Position numbers and translations under genes: made by a program. Under the pieces are notes generated by a model, which did no database searches, was not told where the DNA came from, and was given only the letters and a program-made list of their open reading frames with translations. This document shows positions 17,464 through 24,711 of a DNA stretch of 64,000 nucleotides, piece after piece (position 1 is the first letter of the stretch; every line of letters starts with the position of its first letter). Source of the DNA: Mangrovibacterium diazotrophicum (GTDB lineage: Bacteria > Bacteroidota > Bacteroidia > Bacteroidales > Prolixibacteraceae); NCBI RefSeq assembly GCF_003610535.1, contig NZ_RAPN01000001.1, positions 2,343,320 to 2,407,319 on the forward strand, in the 5' to 3' direction.

Positions 17464-20112
17464 ATGAAACGAGACTTAGCTTTCGCAGGCTTGCTGTGCC
17501 TGCTCTTCTTATTTTCAACCCAAAACATTTATGCTAAACAAAAAGAACTCGACTGGGCCGAACTAAGCACTTGCACCGATAATACAACAATTCCTTTTAA
17601 AGCGAAAGGAGACTATTTTTCGGTGTGGGACGGCAAAGACTACACAAAGCTTTTCCTGAAAGGAATCAACCTGGGGATCTCGGTTCCCGGAACCCTGCCC
17701 GGAGAGCTTGCTGCAAGCTCGGAACAGTATGCCAAATGGTTCGACCAAATGAAGCAGATTGGCTACAATAACATCCGGCTTTATACACTCCACTATCCCC
17801 GCTTTTACGAAGAATTGCGGAAATACAACCTGGCGCATCCGCAAAGTCCGCTTTTGCTGTTCCAAGGAATCTGGCTGGAGGAACCGGAAACAGACCTTGA
17901 TTTATACAACAAGACAACTTCTTTTGAAACCGAAATTGAAGAAGTAATCAACTGTGTACACGGGAATGCCACCCTCGACACCCGCTTTGGGAAAGCCTAC
18001 GGGACCTTTACCGCCGACGTTTCTCAATGGGTGATTGGCTACATTATCGGACGCGAGGTATTTCCCGGCGAAATAACCGTGACCAACGATGCGCACAGCG
18101 ACAATGCTTTCACCGGCAACTTTTTATCCATTTCCGAAGCAACGGCTTCCGAGACCTGGATCTGTTCGCGCATGGACAAAACTATTACCTACGAATATCA
18201 GCAATACGCTACACAGCGCCCCGTTTGCTTTTCGAGCTGGCCAACACTCGATCCGCTGACTCACCCAACCGAGGCAAACCGCTACGAAGGCTTGGAAGAC
18301 CGGGAATCGATCGATCTTTCGAAAGTAGACGGCAGCAACGCGCAAGCCGGATTTTTCGTTTCCTATCACGCCTATCCATATTATCCGGATTTCATGAGCG
18401 ACCAACCGGAGTACACAACTTATTACGACAGCTACGGCCCGAACAGCTACCTGGGCTATTTGTACGATCTGAAATCGCACTACGAAAATATTCCTCTGGT
18501 AGTGGCCGAATTTGGCGTACCGACCAGCTGGGGAATTGCCCACCTAGCACAAAGCAACATGCACCACGGTGGCATTTCCGAAGAAAAACAAGGCATCTAC
18601 ACCATTCGTATGCTTGAAAATATCGAGGAAGCCGGGCTGGCCGGCGGCATGCAGTTTTCGTGGATTGACGAATGGTTCAAACAAGCCTGGATCACCAACC
18701 CGCTGTCGGACGAAAATCGCCGCTATGTTTGGCACAACATCACCAACCCCGAACAAAATTTCGGCGTTATCAGCTTCGATGCTCCCCAAAGTAAAAAGAC
18801 GACAATTGGAAGTTATTCCTCGGCTTCCGCGATCCAAAAAGTAAAAGCCTCGGCCGACCCGACCTATTTTCACGTAGACATTTTATCCAACACGAAAAAG
18901 GACATCAAAGACGGCGAGTATTGGATCGCTTTCGACACCTATTCCGCCGACGCAGGTGAATCAATCCTGCCCGATGGCGAATCGATCACCAAAGACGGAC
19001 AAACGTTGCGCGCTGAGTTTGCTCTACAGGTAGACCTGAATGATACTGTTGCCAATTTGTACGTGACAAAAGCTTACGATACTTACGGCATCAAGCTGCT
19101 TGACCGCCTGGACACCATTGTTTCAACGGTGACAGACGGAGAAGACTGGAACCCGGTTCGCTGGAAAGTGAACTACTCGAGAAACGACATTCAGTATATT
19201 GGACGAATCAAAATCACACCAAGCAGCAGTCCTTACGGCAGTTTGGATCCGATTTACTGGAACTCGGACAGCATCTCAATCGCGCTGCCCTGGACCTTGC
19301 TCAACTTCCGCGATCCGTCGCACAAGAAAGTGACTTACTACACTTCAAACAATGATGGTGGCACCATCAACGTACTGACCCGCGATTCAACCTCTACCGG
19401 GATTGCGATGACAGTCGTTCACCAGAGCGAAGTGTTCCAAACTGACCGCTACGCATGGGAAGACTGGGAACCTCGTGACCTAATCGACAATCCACCGCTT
19501 GAACGACTGAAGCAGTCGGCTCTTTATATTGAAGACCATTTGTCCGAATTCAACAGCGCACCGGTTGCCAACTGCGACAACTACGAAGTAAACGTGGGTG
19601 AATACATTGAAGTAAGTGCAGCTAACGGACTTTTGGCAAACGATATGGATTTCGACAGCGAGGACATTGAAGTAGTTATCCCCGATGGCTATTCCACTAT
19701 GCAGGGCAACCTGTATGTACACCCGAACGGCTCGTTTGAATACGAACCATTCGAAACAGCCAGCGGCACCGACCAGTTTATGTATTATGCAACCGACGGC
19801 GATCAATATAGCCGATTGGTGACCGTGACCATCACGCTGAACACCAGTGGAACGTCGGCTAGCAGTCCGGTTGCCGAGGCTGCAACAATTGTTTACCCCA
19901 ACCCAACCACGGGGCAATTCAAGATTAACATCTCTGAAGGAACCAAAATCTCGGATCTGCAAATATCCAGTTCAACCGGTTTCATGATCAAACAAATCGA
20001 GGAAATCAGCAATGATCAAACGATTGACATGAGCAACCAACTCCCGGGAATCTACAATATCAGTTTTATTGTGAACAACCAACGAGTCACAGAGAAGCTG
20101 ATTAAATACTAA
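17464..20112 (+). CDS. Secreted glycosidase-like protein with Big_9-type domain and T9SS tail
   Basis: 882 residues. The signal peptide is 1-24. Residues about 30-440 look like a (beta/alpha)8 glycoside hydrolase of clan A type: GINLGISVPG, NIRLYTLHYPRFYEEL, a possible acid/base Glu198 (IIGREV) and a possible nucleophile Glu349 (VVAEFGVP). The middle (about 440-690) is beta-rich and unassigned. A cadherin/Big_9-like domain follows (about 697-795, GLLANDMDFDSEDIEV...GSFEYEP). Then comes a Por secretion tail (about 803-882, VYPNPTTGQFKINI...LPGIYNISF...EKLIKY), which implies type IX export and surface attachment. It faces, convergently, a polysaccharide-synthase operon, so a role in trimming or anchoring that polymer is plausible. 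The exact GH family is not identified. Confidence 0.72.
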   Translation: MKRDLAFAGLLCLLFLFSTQNIYAKQKELDWAELSTCTDNTTIPFKAKGDYFSVWDGKDYTKLFLKGINLGISVPGTLPGELAASSEQYAKWFDQMKQIGYNNIRLYTLHYPRFYEELRKYNLAHPQSPLLLFQGIWLEEPETDLDLYNKTTSFETEIEEVINCVHGNATLDTRFGKAYGTFTADVSQWVIGYIIGREVFPGEITVTNDAHSDNAFTGNFLSISEATASETWICSRMDKTITYEYQQYATQRPVCFSSWPTLDPLTHPTEANRYEGLEDRESIDLSKVDGSNAQAGFFVSYHAYPYYPDFMSDQPEYTTYYDSYGPNSYLGYLYDLKSHYENIPLVVAEFGVPTSWGIAHLAQSNMHHGGISEEKQGIYTIRMLENIEEAGLAGGMQFSWIDEWFKQAWITNPLSDENRRYVWHNITNPEQNFGVISFDAPQSKKTTIGSYSSASAIQKVKASADPTYFHVDILSNTKKDIKDGEYWIAFDTYSADAGESILPDGESITKDGQTLRAEFALQVDLNDTVANLYVTKAYDTYGIKLLDRLDTIVSTVTDGEDWNPVRWKVNYSRNDIQYIGRIKITPSSSPYGSLDPIYWNSDSISIALPWTLLNFRDPSHKKVTYYTSNNDGGTINVLTRDSTSTGIAMTVVHQSEVFQTDRYAWEDWEPRDLIDNPPLERLKQSALYIEDHLSEFNSAPVANCDNYEVNVGEYIEVSAANGLLANDMDFDSEDIEVVIPDGYSTMQGNLYVHPNGSFEYEPFETASGTDQFMYYATDGDQYSRLVTVTITLNTSGTSASSPVAEAATIVYPNPTTGQFKINISEGTKISDLQISSSTGFMIKQIEEISNDQTIDMSNQLPGIYNISFIVNNQRVTEKLIKY

Positions 20113-20118
20113 AACGGG

Positions 20119-20151
20119 AAAAGGCTGAAGCAAAAACTTCAGCCTTTTTTT
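20119..20151 (+). terminator. Terminator after the secreted glycosidase gene
   Basis: AAAAGGCTGAAG, 6-base loop, CTTCAGCCTTTT, perfectly paired and followed by T residues. The A-rich 5' side may also end the convergent glycosyltransferase operon. Confidence 0.85.
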
Positions 20152-20206
20152 ATGCGTTGCAAAATATTTTTCAGTAGAGACTTCATCCGACAAGAGTGTC
20201 TAAAAA

Positions 20207-21682
20207 CTAGCCAACTTTCACCTCGGTAACCGCCGCTTTAACGGGTTTCTTCTTTTTACCACCATTTGCCAAACCTACTCTCGACATATTTCCCCAAGAG
20301 CGCTTACGCAGTACGAAATAGTCGAAGTTACCGCGAATCGCAGCAAACAAAACCAACGGATGATAGAACAACGGCTCGACCAAAGCAGCACCCAATTGCT
20401 TAAAAAGCATGCTCCAGCTTTTGTAACGATAAAACGCAATGTGGTCGTACAAAATAGCGTAGCTGGTAAACGAAATGGAGAAGAAATAAACGAAGAACAG
20501 AGTCACAAAGAAATAGGGCCAGTTTGCAAATCCCAGCAGAGCGATGGTGATGAAATACACCACACCAAACAACTCGACAATCGGTGCCAGCCACTCAAAC
20601 ATAACCCAGAACGGATGCGACACCAATCCCATCATGCCGTATTTCGGATTGAGGAAGATGTTCCAGTGCGAAAACAGCGTTTCGATTGTTCCGCGCGTCC
20701 AGCGGTTCCGTTGGCGGATCAAAATATTCAGGTTCCCCGGTGCTTCTGTCCAGCACAATGGATCCGGTAAATATTCAACCCGGTATGGTTTATTATTGTC
20801 GGCCATGTAGCGACGCATACGAACCACCAATTCCATGTCTTCGCCCACCGTGTAGCGGTGATAACCACCACAGGCAATTACAATTTCTTTATCGAAAAGA
20901 CCCAAAGCTCCTGAAATGATCAGCAAACCATTCAAACGGCTCCAAGCCAATCGACCGAGCAGAAAAGCCCGGTTATATTCCAAAACCTGGAACAAGGGTA
21001 AAATTTTATCAGGCAGCTTAATATTTACCAGGTGCCCATCAACAATCTCGCAGGAGTTCGCGATACGGATGACACCGCCTGTCGCGATCACCTGTTTGTC
21101 GCTTTCCTCCATAAACGGCTTCACCATTTTCTGCAGCGCGTACGGATCGATAATGGAATCGGCGTCGATAGCAATAAAATATTTACCACTCGCGATATTC
21201 AAACCGGCATTCAAAGCATCAGCCTTACCGCCGTTCACTTTGTCAACCACTGTCAGATTGTTCAACGCGCGTTTCCGCGATTTGTAAACACCCCGAATCT
21301 CAGAACAGAAAATACGTTCGTTAACCACGTAACTGACCTTCTCCAGGTCAAACGCTTCAATCGCGCGCTGCAACGTATCATCCTTACTACCATCGTTAAT
21401 AACGACAACTTCGAAGTTGGTATAATGCAGTGCTAACAACGCGCGGATGTTCTCAACAATATTCAAAGACTCATTAAAAGCCGGTGCCAAAATGGAAATT
21501 GAAGGCGCAAACGGAGATGACAACACCTCGTTGTGATCGGCTATTTTTGAGTTTAAAAAGTAGCGGCGGAGGACAAAAGCCGAGATGACAGCCAGGACGA
21601 AGTACAGCAAGAATATAGCTACCGTGTAGTAGAAAATAAAGGATTCGACCCAAAAAGAAATTATTTTAGCTATGATGTCCAT
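20207..21682 (-). CDS. Processive GT2 membrane glycosyltransferase (polysaccharide synthase)
   Basis: 491 residues. A TM segment (about 15-40) is followed by a cytoplasmic GT2 domain, with NDGS (Asp97), DAD (173-175), TVGED (catalytic Asp282) and QRNRW (324-328). This is the D,D,D,QxxRW pattern of processive synthases such as PgaC, HasA and BcsA. Three or four C-terminal membrane helices (about 345-450) form the likely polymer channel. A Lys-rich tail follows. No PilZ domain is present. It ends a four-gene operon, overlapping the HEAT gene by one base (TAATG). I infer that it polymerises an exopolysaccharide; the polymer (PNAG-like, cellulose-like or other) cannot be told from sequence. Confidence 0.87.
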   Translation of the reverse strand: MDIIAKIISFWVESFIFYYTVAIFLLYFVLAVISAFVLRRYFLNSKIADHNEVLSSPFAPSISILAPAFNESLNIVENIRALLALHYTNFEVVVINDGSKDDTLQRAIEAFDLEKVSYVVNERIFCSEIRGVYKSRKRALNNLTVVDKVNGGKADALNAGLNIASGKYFIAIDADSIIDPYALQKMVKPFMEESDKQVIATGGVIRIANSCEIVDGHLVNIKLPDKILPLFQVLEYNRAFLLGRLAWSRLNGLLIISGALGLFDKEIVIACGGYHRYTVGEDMELVVRMRRYMADNNKPYRVEYLPDPLCWTEAPGNLNILIRQRNRWTRGTIETLFSHWNIFLNPKYGMMGLVSHPFWVMFEWLAPIVELFGVVYFITIALLGFANWPYFFVTLFFVYFFSISFTSYAILYDHIAFYRYKSWSMLFKQLGAALVEPLFYHPLVLFAAIRGNFDYFVLRKRSWGNMSRVGLANGGKKKKPVKAAVTEVKVG

Positions 21683-23070
21683 TAGTTTCGCTGGTCTTTT
21701 ATGTGTTCAACAAATCGCTTTAAATCAAAATCTTCGCTTTCGCTGTACTCCTTCAAAAAGGCGCGCCCACTTTCTCCCATTTGGTAGAATGCCTCTACGG
21801 CTTGCATTTTTAGCTGGATATTTTCATTCTTCAAAACACCGATCAGGAAACTAAAATCTCCCTCATCCCCTAAATCGCGAATAATTTTCAGAATGCTTAT
21901 TTTATTGGCAATCGTTTCATCTTCGTAGCGTTCTTTCGCCGGCACTTTCCCCTCAAACAGGTTCAAATGTCGAATAGCCCGGTATACATAGCCTCGTGTC
22001 TGCTCGTTCGGGTGATTCATTTTTCGAATCAAGTGTTCCGAATTTTCACTCTGCTGGAAATAATCGATCATCCGAATAGAAAAATCCTGCACATCATTGT
22101 TCGACGAGTCAATCCAGTGATGAAACGACGGCACATTGCGTTCGTGCAGTTTCACGTAGTTCAGAATGTTTAGCTGTACCCAAGCCGACAGCTTTTGATC
22201 CATATCATTCAAAAATCCGAAGGAAGTATCTTCATCCAGATAGGCATAAGCAATTTGCGCCTCACTGCGCACCATGTAATTCTTGTCCTTCACATACTTC
22301 ATGATCAAGGCTTTTGCGCCCACCGGGTACATATTTGCCAGCTCGCGGATGCCTTTCACCCGCTTGTAAGTGTGTGCCGACCGCATTTTCCGCGACGATA
22401 TCTTGAATAGCTCCATCTTATCGTAGAGCTCCAAAATACGATCCCGGTATTCACCAGAAAGGTTTCGCTGGTAGTTGAAGAAAATGTCGATGAGCAAATC
22501 CCGTCCCAAAGTCGTTTTCACTTGTTTCAGATCTTTCAAAACATCTTCCTGGCTCAAATCATAGAAAAGGTATTTCGTCAACACATCCTCGAAGCGCTGA
22601 TTCAAACGCTCTTTATAACTTTCCCGCGCTTTCTTGTAGTAACTTACAATCACCAACACAACCGTTACAATAAAGACATTCACGATAAACGTAAAGCTCA
22701 GCAACAGCAAGATGATCAGCAATGGGATCTGGAAAACGATGTCGATGACCGATTTCAGAAACGATTGCCACGACATTGGGAAAATTCGCTCCACTCCTGA
22801 ATACAAAAACTCGTGAAAAATCCTCCGCATTCGTTCCCAAAATGTATAATGAGGAATTTGTCCTGCTTTTTGATCCAGGTAATTTGAAACGCGAGCTCTT
22901 ATAGCTTCGTCGCTCTCCGCAGTATTTGATTCAGAAATGACAGGTGCCTCTTCTGCATCCACATTCTGCTCAACAGGTTGAGTTTGGGGCTCCATTTTCT
23001 CCTGGCTAAATCCGGGCATTGCTCCGGCCAGCAGAATAAGCATCAGGTATAGTATCAGGTTCTTGCGCAT
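21682..23070 (-). CDS. Membrane-anchored HEAT-repeat protein of the exopolysaccharide operon
   Basis: 462 residues. A signal peptide or first helix (1-22) is followed by an acidic linker (25-58) and a long hydrophobic hairpin (about 108-144, rich in Ile/Leu/Val). A soluble helical region (150-462) contains HEAT-like repeats, for example ALIMKYVKDKNYMVRSEAQIAYAYL, and later FLIGVLKNENIQLKMQAVEAFYQMG. It lies between the YaiO-like barrel gene (3-base gap) and the synthase gene (1-base overlap). I infer a scaffold linking synthase to export or regulator. I know no named function for it. Confidence 0.75.
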   Translation of the reverse strand: MRKNLILYLMLILLAGAMPGFSQEKMEPQTQPVEQNVDAEEAPVISESNTAESDEAIRARVSNYLDQKAGQIPHYTFWERMRRIFHEFLYSGVERIFPMSWQSFLKSVIDIVFQIPLLIILLLLSFTFIVNVFIVTVVLVIVSYYKKARESYKERLNQRFEDVLTKYLFYDLSQEDVLKDLKQVKTTLGRDLLIDIFFNYQRNLSGEYRDRILELYDKMELFKISSRKMRSAHTYKRVKGIRELANMYPVGAKALIMKYVKDKNYMVRSEAQIAYAYLDEDTSFGFLNDMDQKLSAWVQLNILNYVKLHERNVPSFHHWIDSSNNDVQDFSIRMIDYFQQSENSEHLIRKMNHPNEQTRGYVYRAIRHLNLFEGKVPAKERYEDETIANKISILKIIRDLGDEGDFSFLIGVLKNENIQLKMQAVEAFYQMGESGRAFLKEYSESEDFDLKRFVEHIKDQRN

Positions 23071-23073
23071 CTC

Positions 23074-24351
23074 TTAAAACAAAAATGAAATTGCCGAACG
23101 AATACTAAATTGGTTCCGACGCTCACCATCGGTATATTCAGCATTTTCGTAACCAGCCTGTAACTCAATCAACAAAAAGTGATTTATCTTCTGTTTCCAC
23201 TCTGCTTCCACCCGCCACGACTGCAAGTCGGGAATTTTTTCGCCACTTGTGTAAAAGAAAGGATTGTCGGGCGAAACACCCGAACTCAGAATCAATCCAA
23301 GGTAACTTTCTTCGGTCGGCAAATAGTACCGGCCATTCAGCAAAAATATGTACGATGTTTCGCTGTCCTGAAAAACCACATACGGACGGAACGACAACCA
23401 GTATTTTCCCATGTAACGCCCAACCGAACCGGTCAGAATATTGATATTAACCGCATCGGTTAAACCTTCAGTAAAATTGTAATAGCGGTAACCACCGGAT
23501 AGCTCGAAGTGATTCCGGAAAACATGAAAATATTCCAGTCCAACCCGGTGTTTCGGGAATACCGCATCGGGCGACCAGGCATAATTCACGTACATGGAAT
23601 TGTACTCGTCCAGCTTCGGATAACATTCCAGCGAAAACTGTTTTCCAACTCCATCACTGTACAATTTTTCGCCATCGCCGATCAGGTCGCCGACATACAC
23701 TTTAGCATAATAATCACCAAAAGCTGTCCGCCGGCCATAGCCCAGCGAACTCATGTGCCATTTCCGGTCGTATGGCTTGTTAAAGGTATCGTAGTAGTGC
23801 TCCAGTCGGATGATATTACTGGCCTGAATGCCGGCTCCCTTCTTCAAAACCGGTAAGGACTCGTTTTCGGGATCAAGCTCTTCCAACTGCGCAATTGTCG
23901 CCCGCGATGCTTTTACATCATTATCTGCCAGCTGCACCTTGGCTTTCTTCACCAACAAGTTCGAATCCTCTGGATAAAATACCAAAGCCCGATCCACCGT
24001 GGTCAACGAAGCGCGGTTATCGCCGCTCCAAAAATAAAAATCGACTAACGCATTCAGCGCATCGTAATTCTTTGGATCTTGTTCCAGCACCTGGGAAATA
24101 TTTTTGACGGCATTCTCGTAGTCGTTCTGCCAGGCGTAAGTGCGGGCCATTAGAATTCGAACGTCGAAGTACTCGGGATACACCTCCAGAATCTTCTCCG
24201 AAAGATTGATTGCTTCGTCGTATTTGCCGTCGATAGAATACTGACGGGCTACAAAAAACAACGAATCGCCATTCATCTTTTCCTGCGAGAAAGAAACCAG
24301 TGGCAGCAAAGCCCACAGCGCAAAAGCAATTATAGACAGAGGGCTCTTCAT
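23074..24351 (-). CDS. TPR plus YaiO-family outer-membrane beta-barrel protein
   Basis: 425 residues. The signal peptide is 1-22. TPR repeats follow (about 25-165, e.g. KILEVYPEYFDVRILMARTYAWQNDYENA). A YaiO-type barrel occupies about 175-425, with repeated aromatic strands (HYYDTFNKPYDRKWHMSSLGYGRR, VGLEYFHVF, GGYRYYNF), and the last residue is Phe (SIRSAISFLF), as in BAM substrates. The TPR-plus-barrel layout parallels PgaA and the AlgK/AlgE or BcsC exporters of synthase-dependent polysaccharides. Its gene begins directly after the receiver gene. Export of the polymer made by the GT2 is the likely role. Confidence 0.82.
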   Translation of the reverse strand: MKSPLSIIAFALWALLPLVSFSQEKMNGDSLFFVARQYSIDGKYDEAINLSEKILEVYPEYFDVRILMARTYAWQNDYENAVKNISQVLEQDPKNYDALNALVDFYFWSGDNRASLTTVDRALVFYPEDSNLLVKKAKVQLADNDVKASRATIAQLEELDPENESLPVLKKGAGIQASNIIRLEHYYDTFNKPYDRKWHMSSLGYGRRTAFGDYYAKVYVGDLIGDGEKLYSDGVGKQFSLECYPKLDEYNSMYVNYAWSPDAVFPKHRVGLEYFHVFRNHFELSGGYRYYNFTEGLTDAVNINILTGSVGRYMGKYWLSFRPYVVFQDSETSYIFLLNGRYYLPTEESYLGLILSSGVSPDNPFFYTSGEKIPDLQSWRVEAEWKQKINHFLLIELQAGYENAEYTDGERRNQFSIRSAISFLF

Positions 24352-24711
24352 TTACCTAAGTAGTTTTCGGATTCGGATTGTTAATTCACTCAAGCTAAAC
24401 GGCTTGATCACGTAGTCGTCTGCACCCAGTTCGAAGGCTTTCAAAACCGTGTCTTCTGCCCCATCAGCCGACAATACCAAGATCGGCATGGTCAGGTTCA
24501 GTTCATTCCGGGCAATATTGATGACCTCATGCCCATTCACGTAAGGCATGTACAAATCGGTTATTAATAAATCGACAGGATTTTCCTTCAGATAGGACAG
24601 ACATTCTTTCCCATCTAAAACTTTCACGACATCGTAACCGTCGCGAATCAACTTATGATTTATCGTCTCAAGGATAAGTTTATTATCTTCGGCGACTAGT
24701 ATTTTTTTCAT
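24352..24711 (-). CDS. Single-domain response regulator (CheY-like)
   Basis: 119 residues, receiver domain only. It has acidic pocket AEDN at 7-10, phosphoacceptor Asp52 in LLITDLYMP, a switch Ser in LVLSADG, and Lys in YVIKPFS. No output domain is present, so it must act through protein contact. First gene of the exopolysaccharide operon, directly abutting the YaiO-like gene. In organisms largely without c-di-GMP signalling, this protein is a candidate for post-translational control of the synthase. No kinase gene lies alongside. Confidence 0.9.
   Translation of the reverse strand: MKKILVAEDNKLILETINHKLIRDGYDVVKVLDGKECLSYLKENPVDLLITDLYMPYVNGHEVINIARNELNLTMPILVLSADGAEDTVLKAFELGADDYVIKPFSLSELTIRIRKLLR

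Follow-up and report, generated by a model that had tools for sequence, protein, structure and literature searches.

Five genes make up the locus described here, which lies in the window, the 64,000-nucleotide stretch of the Mangrovibacterium diazotrophicum genome that was analysed (Table 1). The ORF coordinates confirmed the minus-strand operon proposed in the initial annotation, in the order REC-YaiO-HEAT-GT2; the gaps between the genes are 0 and 3 bases, and HEAT and GT2 overlap by 1 base. The ORF list and Pfam likewise agree on a convergent gene for a glycosidase-like protein with a Big_9 domain and a T9SS Por tail, located 94 bases from the GT2 stop codon. No kinase gene adjoins REC in the ORF list of the window.

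Table 1. Features of the locus in the window, with the domains matched in each product.
Feature	Position	Strand	Domains and sites
REC, stand-alone CheY-like receiver, 119 aa	24352-24711	-	Pfam Response_reg 2.9e-25; phospho-acceptor Asp52
TPR + YaiO outer-membrane beta-barrel protein, 425 aa	23074-24351	-	Pfam YaiO 1.9e-36, TPR_19 1.5e-16
Membrane-anchored HEAT-repeat adaptor, 462 aa	21682-23070	-	Pfam HEAT_2 1.6e-7
Processive-type membrane GT2 (putative synthase), 491 aa	20207-21682	-	Pfam Glyco_tranf_2_3 7.6e-24
Secreted glycosidase-like protein, 882 aa	17464-20112	+	Pfam Big_9 8.8e-12, Por_Secre_tail 5.9e-10
Segments of the glycosidase-like protein (residues)			Big_9 697-791; T9SS Por tail 810-880

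The YaiO protein scored 94.1 bits with TIGR04390, against a cut-off of 32, and its N-terminus (residues 1-19) is hydrophobic and signal-like according to hydropathy. The presence of TPR and YaiO domains in one protein fits a periplasmic TPR part coupled to a predicted outer-membrane pore. Hydropathy analysis of the HEAT protein revealed a hydrophobic segment at residues 4-22 and a transmembrane segment at 117-135, followed by the HEAT-like part, which is probably on the cytoplasmic side. A transmembrane segment ahead of the repeats was found in this protein and in all seven relatives checked, and of 62 aligned HEAT relatives 55 gave a HEAT_2 match with an E value of at most 0.01.

Among the genomes of relatives the HEAT protein is patchily distributed, since it is present in 5 of 41, the M. 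diazotrophicum genome included. The genes lie together in all four other HEAT-bearing relatives: three have the order REC-YaiO-HEAT-GT2 (L006, L007, L008) and one has REC-HEAT-GT2-YaiO (L009). The first order is kept in L007, from another genus of the same family, and in L008, from another family, although identity to the window proteins is 26-28% for HEAT and 53-54% for GT2; its retention despite the low HEAT identity points to a gene order beyond chance.

The GT2 proteins form a well-delimited family. In ten genomes searched at E 1e-12, no member scored below 586 bits and the next match reached 142; members across Bacteroidota range down to 318 bits. For the loci, membership was set at 380 bits or more with a refined model; 163 genes scored from 403.6 bits, and the next frame scored 25. 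A GT2-only profile at E 1e-75 matched 78 places in 70 of 296 Bacteroidota genomes. At all 76 places examined (75 stretches and the window; G088 and G241 were left out), a HEAT gene is directly upstream of GT2. When four loci from relatives are taken in and the HEAT model is read up to E 0.1, the tally for this phylum sample is 79 of 79 GT2 genes, 77 of them with HEAT at E 1e-5 or better; the two weak neighbours (L118, L123) are also matched by Pfam HEAT_2, in L123 below the cut-off.

A chance linkage was rejected, as the HEAT profile at E 1e-6 gave 67 matches in the 296 genomes (58 genomes with a match), yet HEAT adjoins 76 of 76 GT2 places. In the reverse direction, 57 of the 67 HEAT places were examined. 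GT2 adjoins all of the 46 best (45.9 bits or more), while among 11 lower-scoring places it was found at two (L101, L119) and was absent at nine (L084-L092). The profile matches at these nine are mostly partial; the nine have full-length scores of 34-67 bits versus 48-60 for the weakest true members, so the HEAT score alone cannot separate members. Despite this overlap the nine were set aside as another type of Bacteroidota locus, in which GT2 is absent. At seven of them, L084 and L090 being the exceptions, the receiver model matched at least twice in the neighbourhood. Generic HEAT proteins thus exist apart from GT2, but GT2 was never seen without HEAT where the upstream region was readable.

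A wider contig scan with a GT2 alignment extended this picture beyond the phylum. Its best 80 of 385 loci contain 84 GT2 genes, of which 76 have HEAT either upstream or in the same frame as a fusion (68 strong matches, 7 weak, and L209 by Pfam only); a count among model-matched frames, which leaves out fusions and the Pfam-only case, gives HEAT as the next upstream gene at 73 of 84. At L065, L066 and L164 HEAT sits upstream of GT2. The other eight GT2 genes comprise three at contig edges (L134, L152, L170), four second tandem copies and one apparent fusion (L210), a 973-aa frame whose N-terminus has a hydrophobic segment and whose GT2 part is preceded by some 440 residues, without a Pfam HEAT match. 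A clearer HEAT-GT2 fusion of 958 aa, with both domains matched by Pfam, is encoded in a Sphaerochaeta MAG (L192). Tandem GT2-GT2 pairs following HEAT occur in L154, L155, L156 and L212, titled Chitinophagaceae (two), Beijerinckiaceae and Flavipsychrobacter. The phylum sample and the best 80 of 385 wider-scan loci together have HEAT directly upstream or fused at 155 of 163 GT2 genes. Three out-of-family matches (L233-L235, two genomic places with flanks of 3.3-3.9 kb) had no HEAT at E 0.1 and are too few to weigh.

The titles of the best 80 of 385 loci include Bacteroidota, Gemmatimonadetes, Myxococcota, Bdellovibrio, several Pseudomonadota, Bacillota, Sphaerochaeta, Elusimicrobia and an archaeal MAG, some MAG labels being doubtful; the titles of L171 (Klebsiella pneumoniae MAG) and L155 (Beijerinckiaceae) seem questionable given the loci in those records. 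A plasmid search returned 14 records, of which 7 were opened. The identical four-gene order REC-YaiO-HEAT-GT2 is annotated on a plasmid of Mesorhizobium ciceri, REC-TPR-HEAT-GT2 on one of Erythrobacter aureus, REC-HEAT-GT2 on one of the haloarchaeon Haloarcula halophila, and HEAT-GT2 on plasmids of Bacteroides finegoldii and Planococcus maritimus. The HEAT position is annotated as 'hypothetical protein' in the Emticicia plasmid copy, and the Paenibacillus stretch carries no annotation. In the Planococcus plasmid (L216), genes for a polyphosphate polymerase domain, DUF4956 and CotH kinase precede HEAT-GT2.

Conservation, gene order and fusion argue that HEAT and GT2 form a physical unit. The initial annotation had expected all four operon genes to co-occur; this holds for HEAT and GT2, whereas REC and YaiO are frequent but not universal. 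Of the GT2 genes, 63 of 79 in the phylum sample and 55 of 84 in the wider scan (best 80 of 385 loci) have a YaiO-model match within 6.5 kb, leaving 16 and 29, respectively, with no YaiO nearby, some of these stretches ending early. The YaiO model had no match at 14 loci titled Bacillota (11), archaeal (1) or with names that we take to belong to Actinomycetota (2); of these loci, L170 and L206 are short. Rare co-occurrence, a non-processive GT2 and a HEAT gene independent of the synthase had been named beforehand as contrary results, and none of them refuted the reading, the last being seen in part, at the nine lower-scoring HEAT places.

Altogether, these data suggest that the locus probably encodes a synthase-dependent polysaccharide machine, in which GT2 works with a constant HEAT partner and phosphorylated REC switches synthesis through HEAT. 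By family knowledge and analogy, GT2 would polymerise a nucleotide sugar processively and move the chain through the inner membrane, and the TPR part and the YaiO barrel would carry it across the outer membrane, where a T9SS-delivered clan GH-A-like enzyme could trim or remodel the polymer. Phosphorylated REC would dock on the membrane HEAT protein and turn synthesis on or off, REC and HEAT thereby replacing the PilZ domain or other c-di-GMP part of cellulose, alginate and PNAG systems. The exopolysaccharide reading of the initial annotation is supported as a whole, the secreted polysaccharide being the product that we infer. It counts against the polysaccharide machine that no family member could be linked to a polymer, a phenotype or a structure.

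The phospho-acceptor of the receiver, Asp52, predicted previously, falls in the expected LITD motif, and among 124 small receiver frames (the window and 123 anywhere in the loci) Asp occupies position 52 in 120 and Lys103 is present in all 124. REC immediately precedes HEAT (gap <250 nt) at 43 of 79 phylum-sample and 27 of 84 wider-scan GT2 genes (best 80 of 385 loci). YaiO is in that position at 11 of 79 and 16 of 84 (best 80 of 385 loci), with REC before YaiO in 10 of 11 and 15 of 16, respectively. For 23 of 79 and 26 of 84 GT2 genes (best 80 of 385 loci), a receiver protein of at least 500 aa is encoded no more than 7.5 kb away, and Pfam identified hybrid kinases with Hpt near REC in L042, L049, L058 and L068.

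The most serious alternative, which we nevertheless consider unlikely, is that REC serves another phosphorelay target and does not directly switch the synthase, HEAT merely stabilising GT2. It would account for the GT2 genes that keep HEAT with no REC within 6.5 kb, 13 of 79 and 17 of 84 (30 of 163 including the best 80 of 385 loci), although some stretches end early. However, REC stands directly before HEAT or YaiO-HEAT at 95 of the 163 GT2 genes, and receiver fusions lie ahead of HEAT at 16 more (both counts including the best 80 of 385 loci).

The lack of a c-di-GMP part claimed previously holds for the window locus, whose five proteins have no PilZ or GGDEF match in Pfam, but not for the whole family. 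Five of nine receiver fusions scanned in related loci (L110, L165, L181, L188, L191) have two receiver matches and GGDEF, partial in L165 and L181, and all five end at the HEAT gene.

A fixed place for the glycosidase, as assumed in the initial annotation, was not borne out: homologues lie within 8.5 kb of 3 of 79 phylum-sample and 10 of 84 wider-scan GT2 genes (best 80 of 385 loci), the window uncounted. For the supposed TIM barrel of the 882-aa protein, Pfam gave nothing above cut-off and no PDB sequence matched. Glu198 and Glu349 form a candidate catalytic pair, conserved without exception in the 16 aligned homologues, and one sub-threshold GH72 match (L191) among the 16 members is a lead only. 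Among relatives, the gene is kept in L006, and in L008 it is directly before REC on the same strand (46% identity), while L007 has instead, about 4 kb upstream, a T9SS-tailed protein whose GH16 match narrowly passes the cut-off. The family also adjoins HEAT-GT2 in Clostridium, Paenibacillus, Neobacillus, Jeotgalibacillus, a Sphaerochaeta MAG and a Gemmatimonadetes MAG. It occurs in 6 of 296 Bacteroidota genomes, 5 of them with GT2, whereas GT2 is present in 70 of all 296 (p 0.003 in a one-sided Fisher test, with genomes counted as independent despite their relatedness). The linkage is not strict, because glycosidase and GT2 are on different contigs in G251, G144 and G330, and in G263 the glycosidase is present but GT2 gave no match.

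The glycosidase is one of several alternative accessories, which include DUF4838 and LtaS-like proteins. DUF4838 proteins were found near 9 of 79 and 13 of 84 GT2 genes (best 80 of 385 loci). They follow YaiO at several loci, e.g., L055:3288-5522 and L009:3666-6053, the latter also having a GH20b-domain match just below cut-off. LtaS-like (PF00884-type) proteins are encoded near 27 of 79 and 14 of 84 GT2 genes (best 80 of 385 loci). True sulfatases, as suggested by 'Sulfatase' matches, are unlikely here: none of nine aligned sequences has C/S-x-P-x-R at the site of the nucleophile, and one such string occurs elsewhere in L049.

These LtaS-like proteins raise the possibility, in our view a rather improbable one, that GT2 builds the backbone of a phosphate-decorated or teichoic-acid-like envelope glycan, cell-bound and not a free EPS, to which they add phosphoglycerol or phosphoethanolamine. 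Their frequency is in line with this, as are their Pfam-detected fusion to GT2 in some loci (L049, L056), five hydrophobic segments ahead of the PF00884-type part in the four sequences checked, a GRTF motif shared by 8 of 9 aligned sequences, its Thr presumably being the nucleophile by analogy with LtaS, and the annotation 'LTA synthase family protein' in the Emticicia locus. However, the window locus has no such decorating enzyme; the copy at L042:3222-5600 may be inactive, since GTNY and ITGSH replace GRTF and ITGDH; and E. coli BcsG, annotated as a cellulose phosphoethanolamine transferase, indicates that such groups are placed on exopolysaccharides too.

The polysaccharide machine as proposed above agrees with the synthase itself, which was recognised from the start as processive in type. 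The window GT2 has D97, D173xD175, GED280-282 and QRNRW324-328. Over 164 GT2 sequences (including the best 80 of 385 loci), D97 and D155 are invariant, and in QxxRW the Q and W are kept in 164 of 164 and the R in 157; the broad conservation of D97, DxD, GED and QxxRW fits an inner-membrane polysaccharide synthase. Its best NCBIfam match is the processive synthase PgaC_IcaA, at 140.6 of the 422.3 bits required, and no cut-off was reached among the matches listed (25 models), so that its activity cannot be assigned by family. A non-processive or lipid-linked GT2 in a locus modifying a glycolipid or glycoprotein would suit these missed cut-offs, but is very improbable given the retained QxxRW, the processive best model and the frequent TPR-barrel neighbour.

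A survey of 2020 lists five synthase-dependent exopolysaccharide systems, with c-di-GMP control being typical (PMC7112194). The locus shares with them a putative inner-membrane synthase and a TPR part with a predicted outer-membrane pore, but has REC and HEAT in place of a c-di-GMP-binding domain or co-polymerase. The PNAG system (PgaABCD/IcaA) is similar in its inner-membrane GT2, TPR-barrel exporter and hydrolase. However, the locus also misses the PgaA cut-off (39.9 of 366.65 bits), its operon has no PgaB or PgaD gene, Pfam found no deacetylase domain in the five proteins, and the family model gives E. coli PgaC 119 bits, versus 403.6 or more for the 163 genes (including the best 80 of 385 loci). 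Cellulose (Bcs) systems likewise combine GT2, an outer-membrane channel and a dedicated hydrolase, and a phospho-group transferase recalls some relatives of the locus; unlike them, the locus has no PilZ, its operon lacks BcsB and BcsZ genes, and the CelA model gives 43.3 of 699.1 bits.

The E. coli yaiO-yaiP-yaiS genes also place a YaiO-named barrel near a GT2, but HEAT and REC genes are both missing from that stretch, the family model gives YaiP 51 bits, and the locus YaiO model does not match E. coli YaiO. E. coli NfrA/NfrB are annotated as an outer-membrane exporter and a GT2, NfrB being c-di-GMP-activated, in a stretch without a HEAT or stand-alone receiver gene. The clostridial cellulose locus ccsZABHI, whose polymer was inferred from the specificity of its GH5 hydrolase, pairs a GT2 synthase with this cognate enzyme, but its gene set differs and the main text of the report never mentions HEAT (PMC7710045). 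Assignment to PNAG, cellulose, YaiP/YaiO or NfrAB was thus ruled out by scores and gene content, and no description of the HEAT-GT2 gene set was found among the matches listed for the openly licensed PMC literature.

One could hypothesise, at about even odds in our judgement, that HEAT-GT2 represents a separate bacterial and archaeal class of synthases, in which the HEAT adaptor reads a phosphorelay receiver rather than c-di-GMP and interchangeable remodelling modules (the clan GH-A-like glycosidase family without a Pfam catalytic model, the LtaS-like transferase, DUF4838 proteins) tune the polymer. As the GT2 family occurs in 70 of 296 Bacteroidota genomes and extends to other phyla and to a haloarchaeon, it may make a widespread extracellular polymer that has so far escaped assignment. 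The locus offers a possible alternative route of control, from phosphorelay through receiver and HEAT to the synthase, as well as this glycosidase family and a natural HEAT-GT2 fusion for structural work.

A further protein family, some 373-432 aa in length, recurs at the loci (L045:7215-8372, L066:4314-5501, L180:5803-8853, L192:3299-6592); Pfam matched none of the five members scanned alone (L045, L066, L126, L165, L201). In L180 and L192 it is fused ahead of the glycosidase domain.
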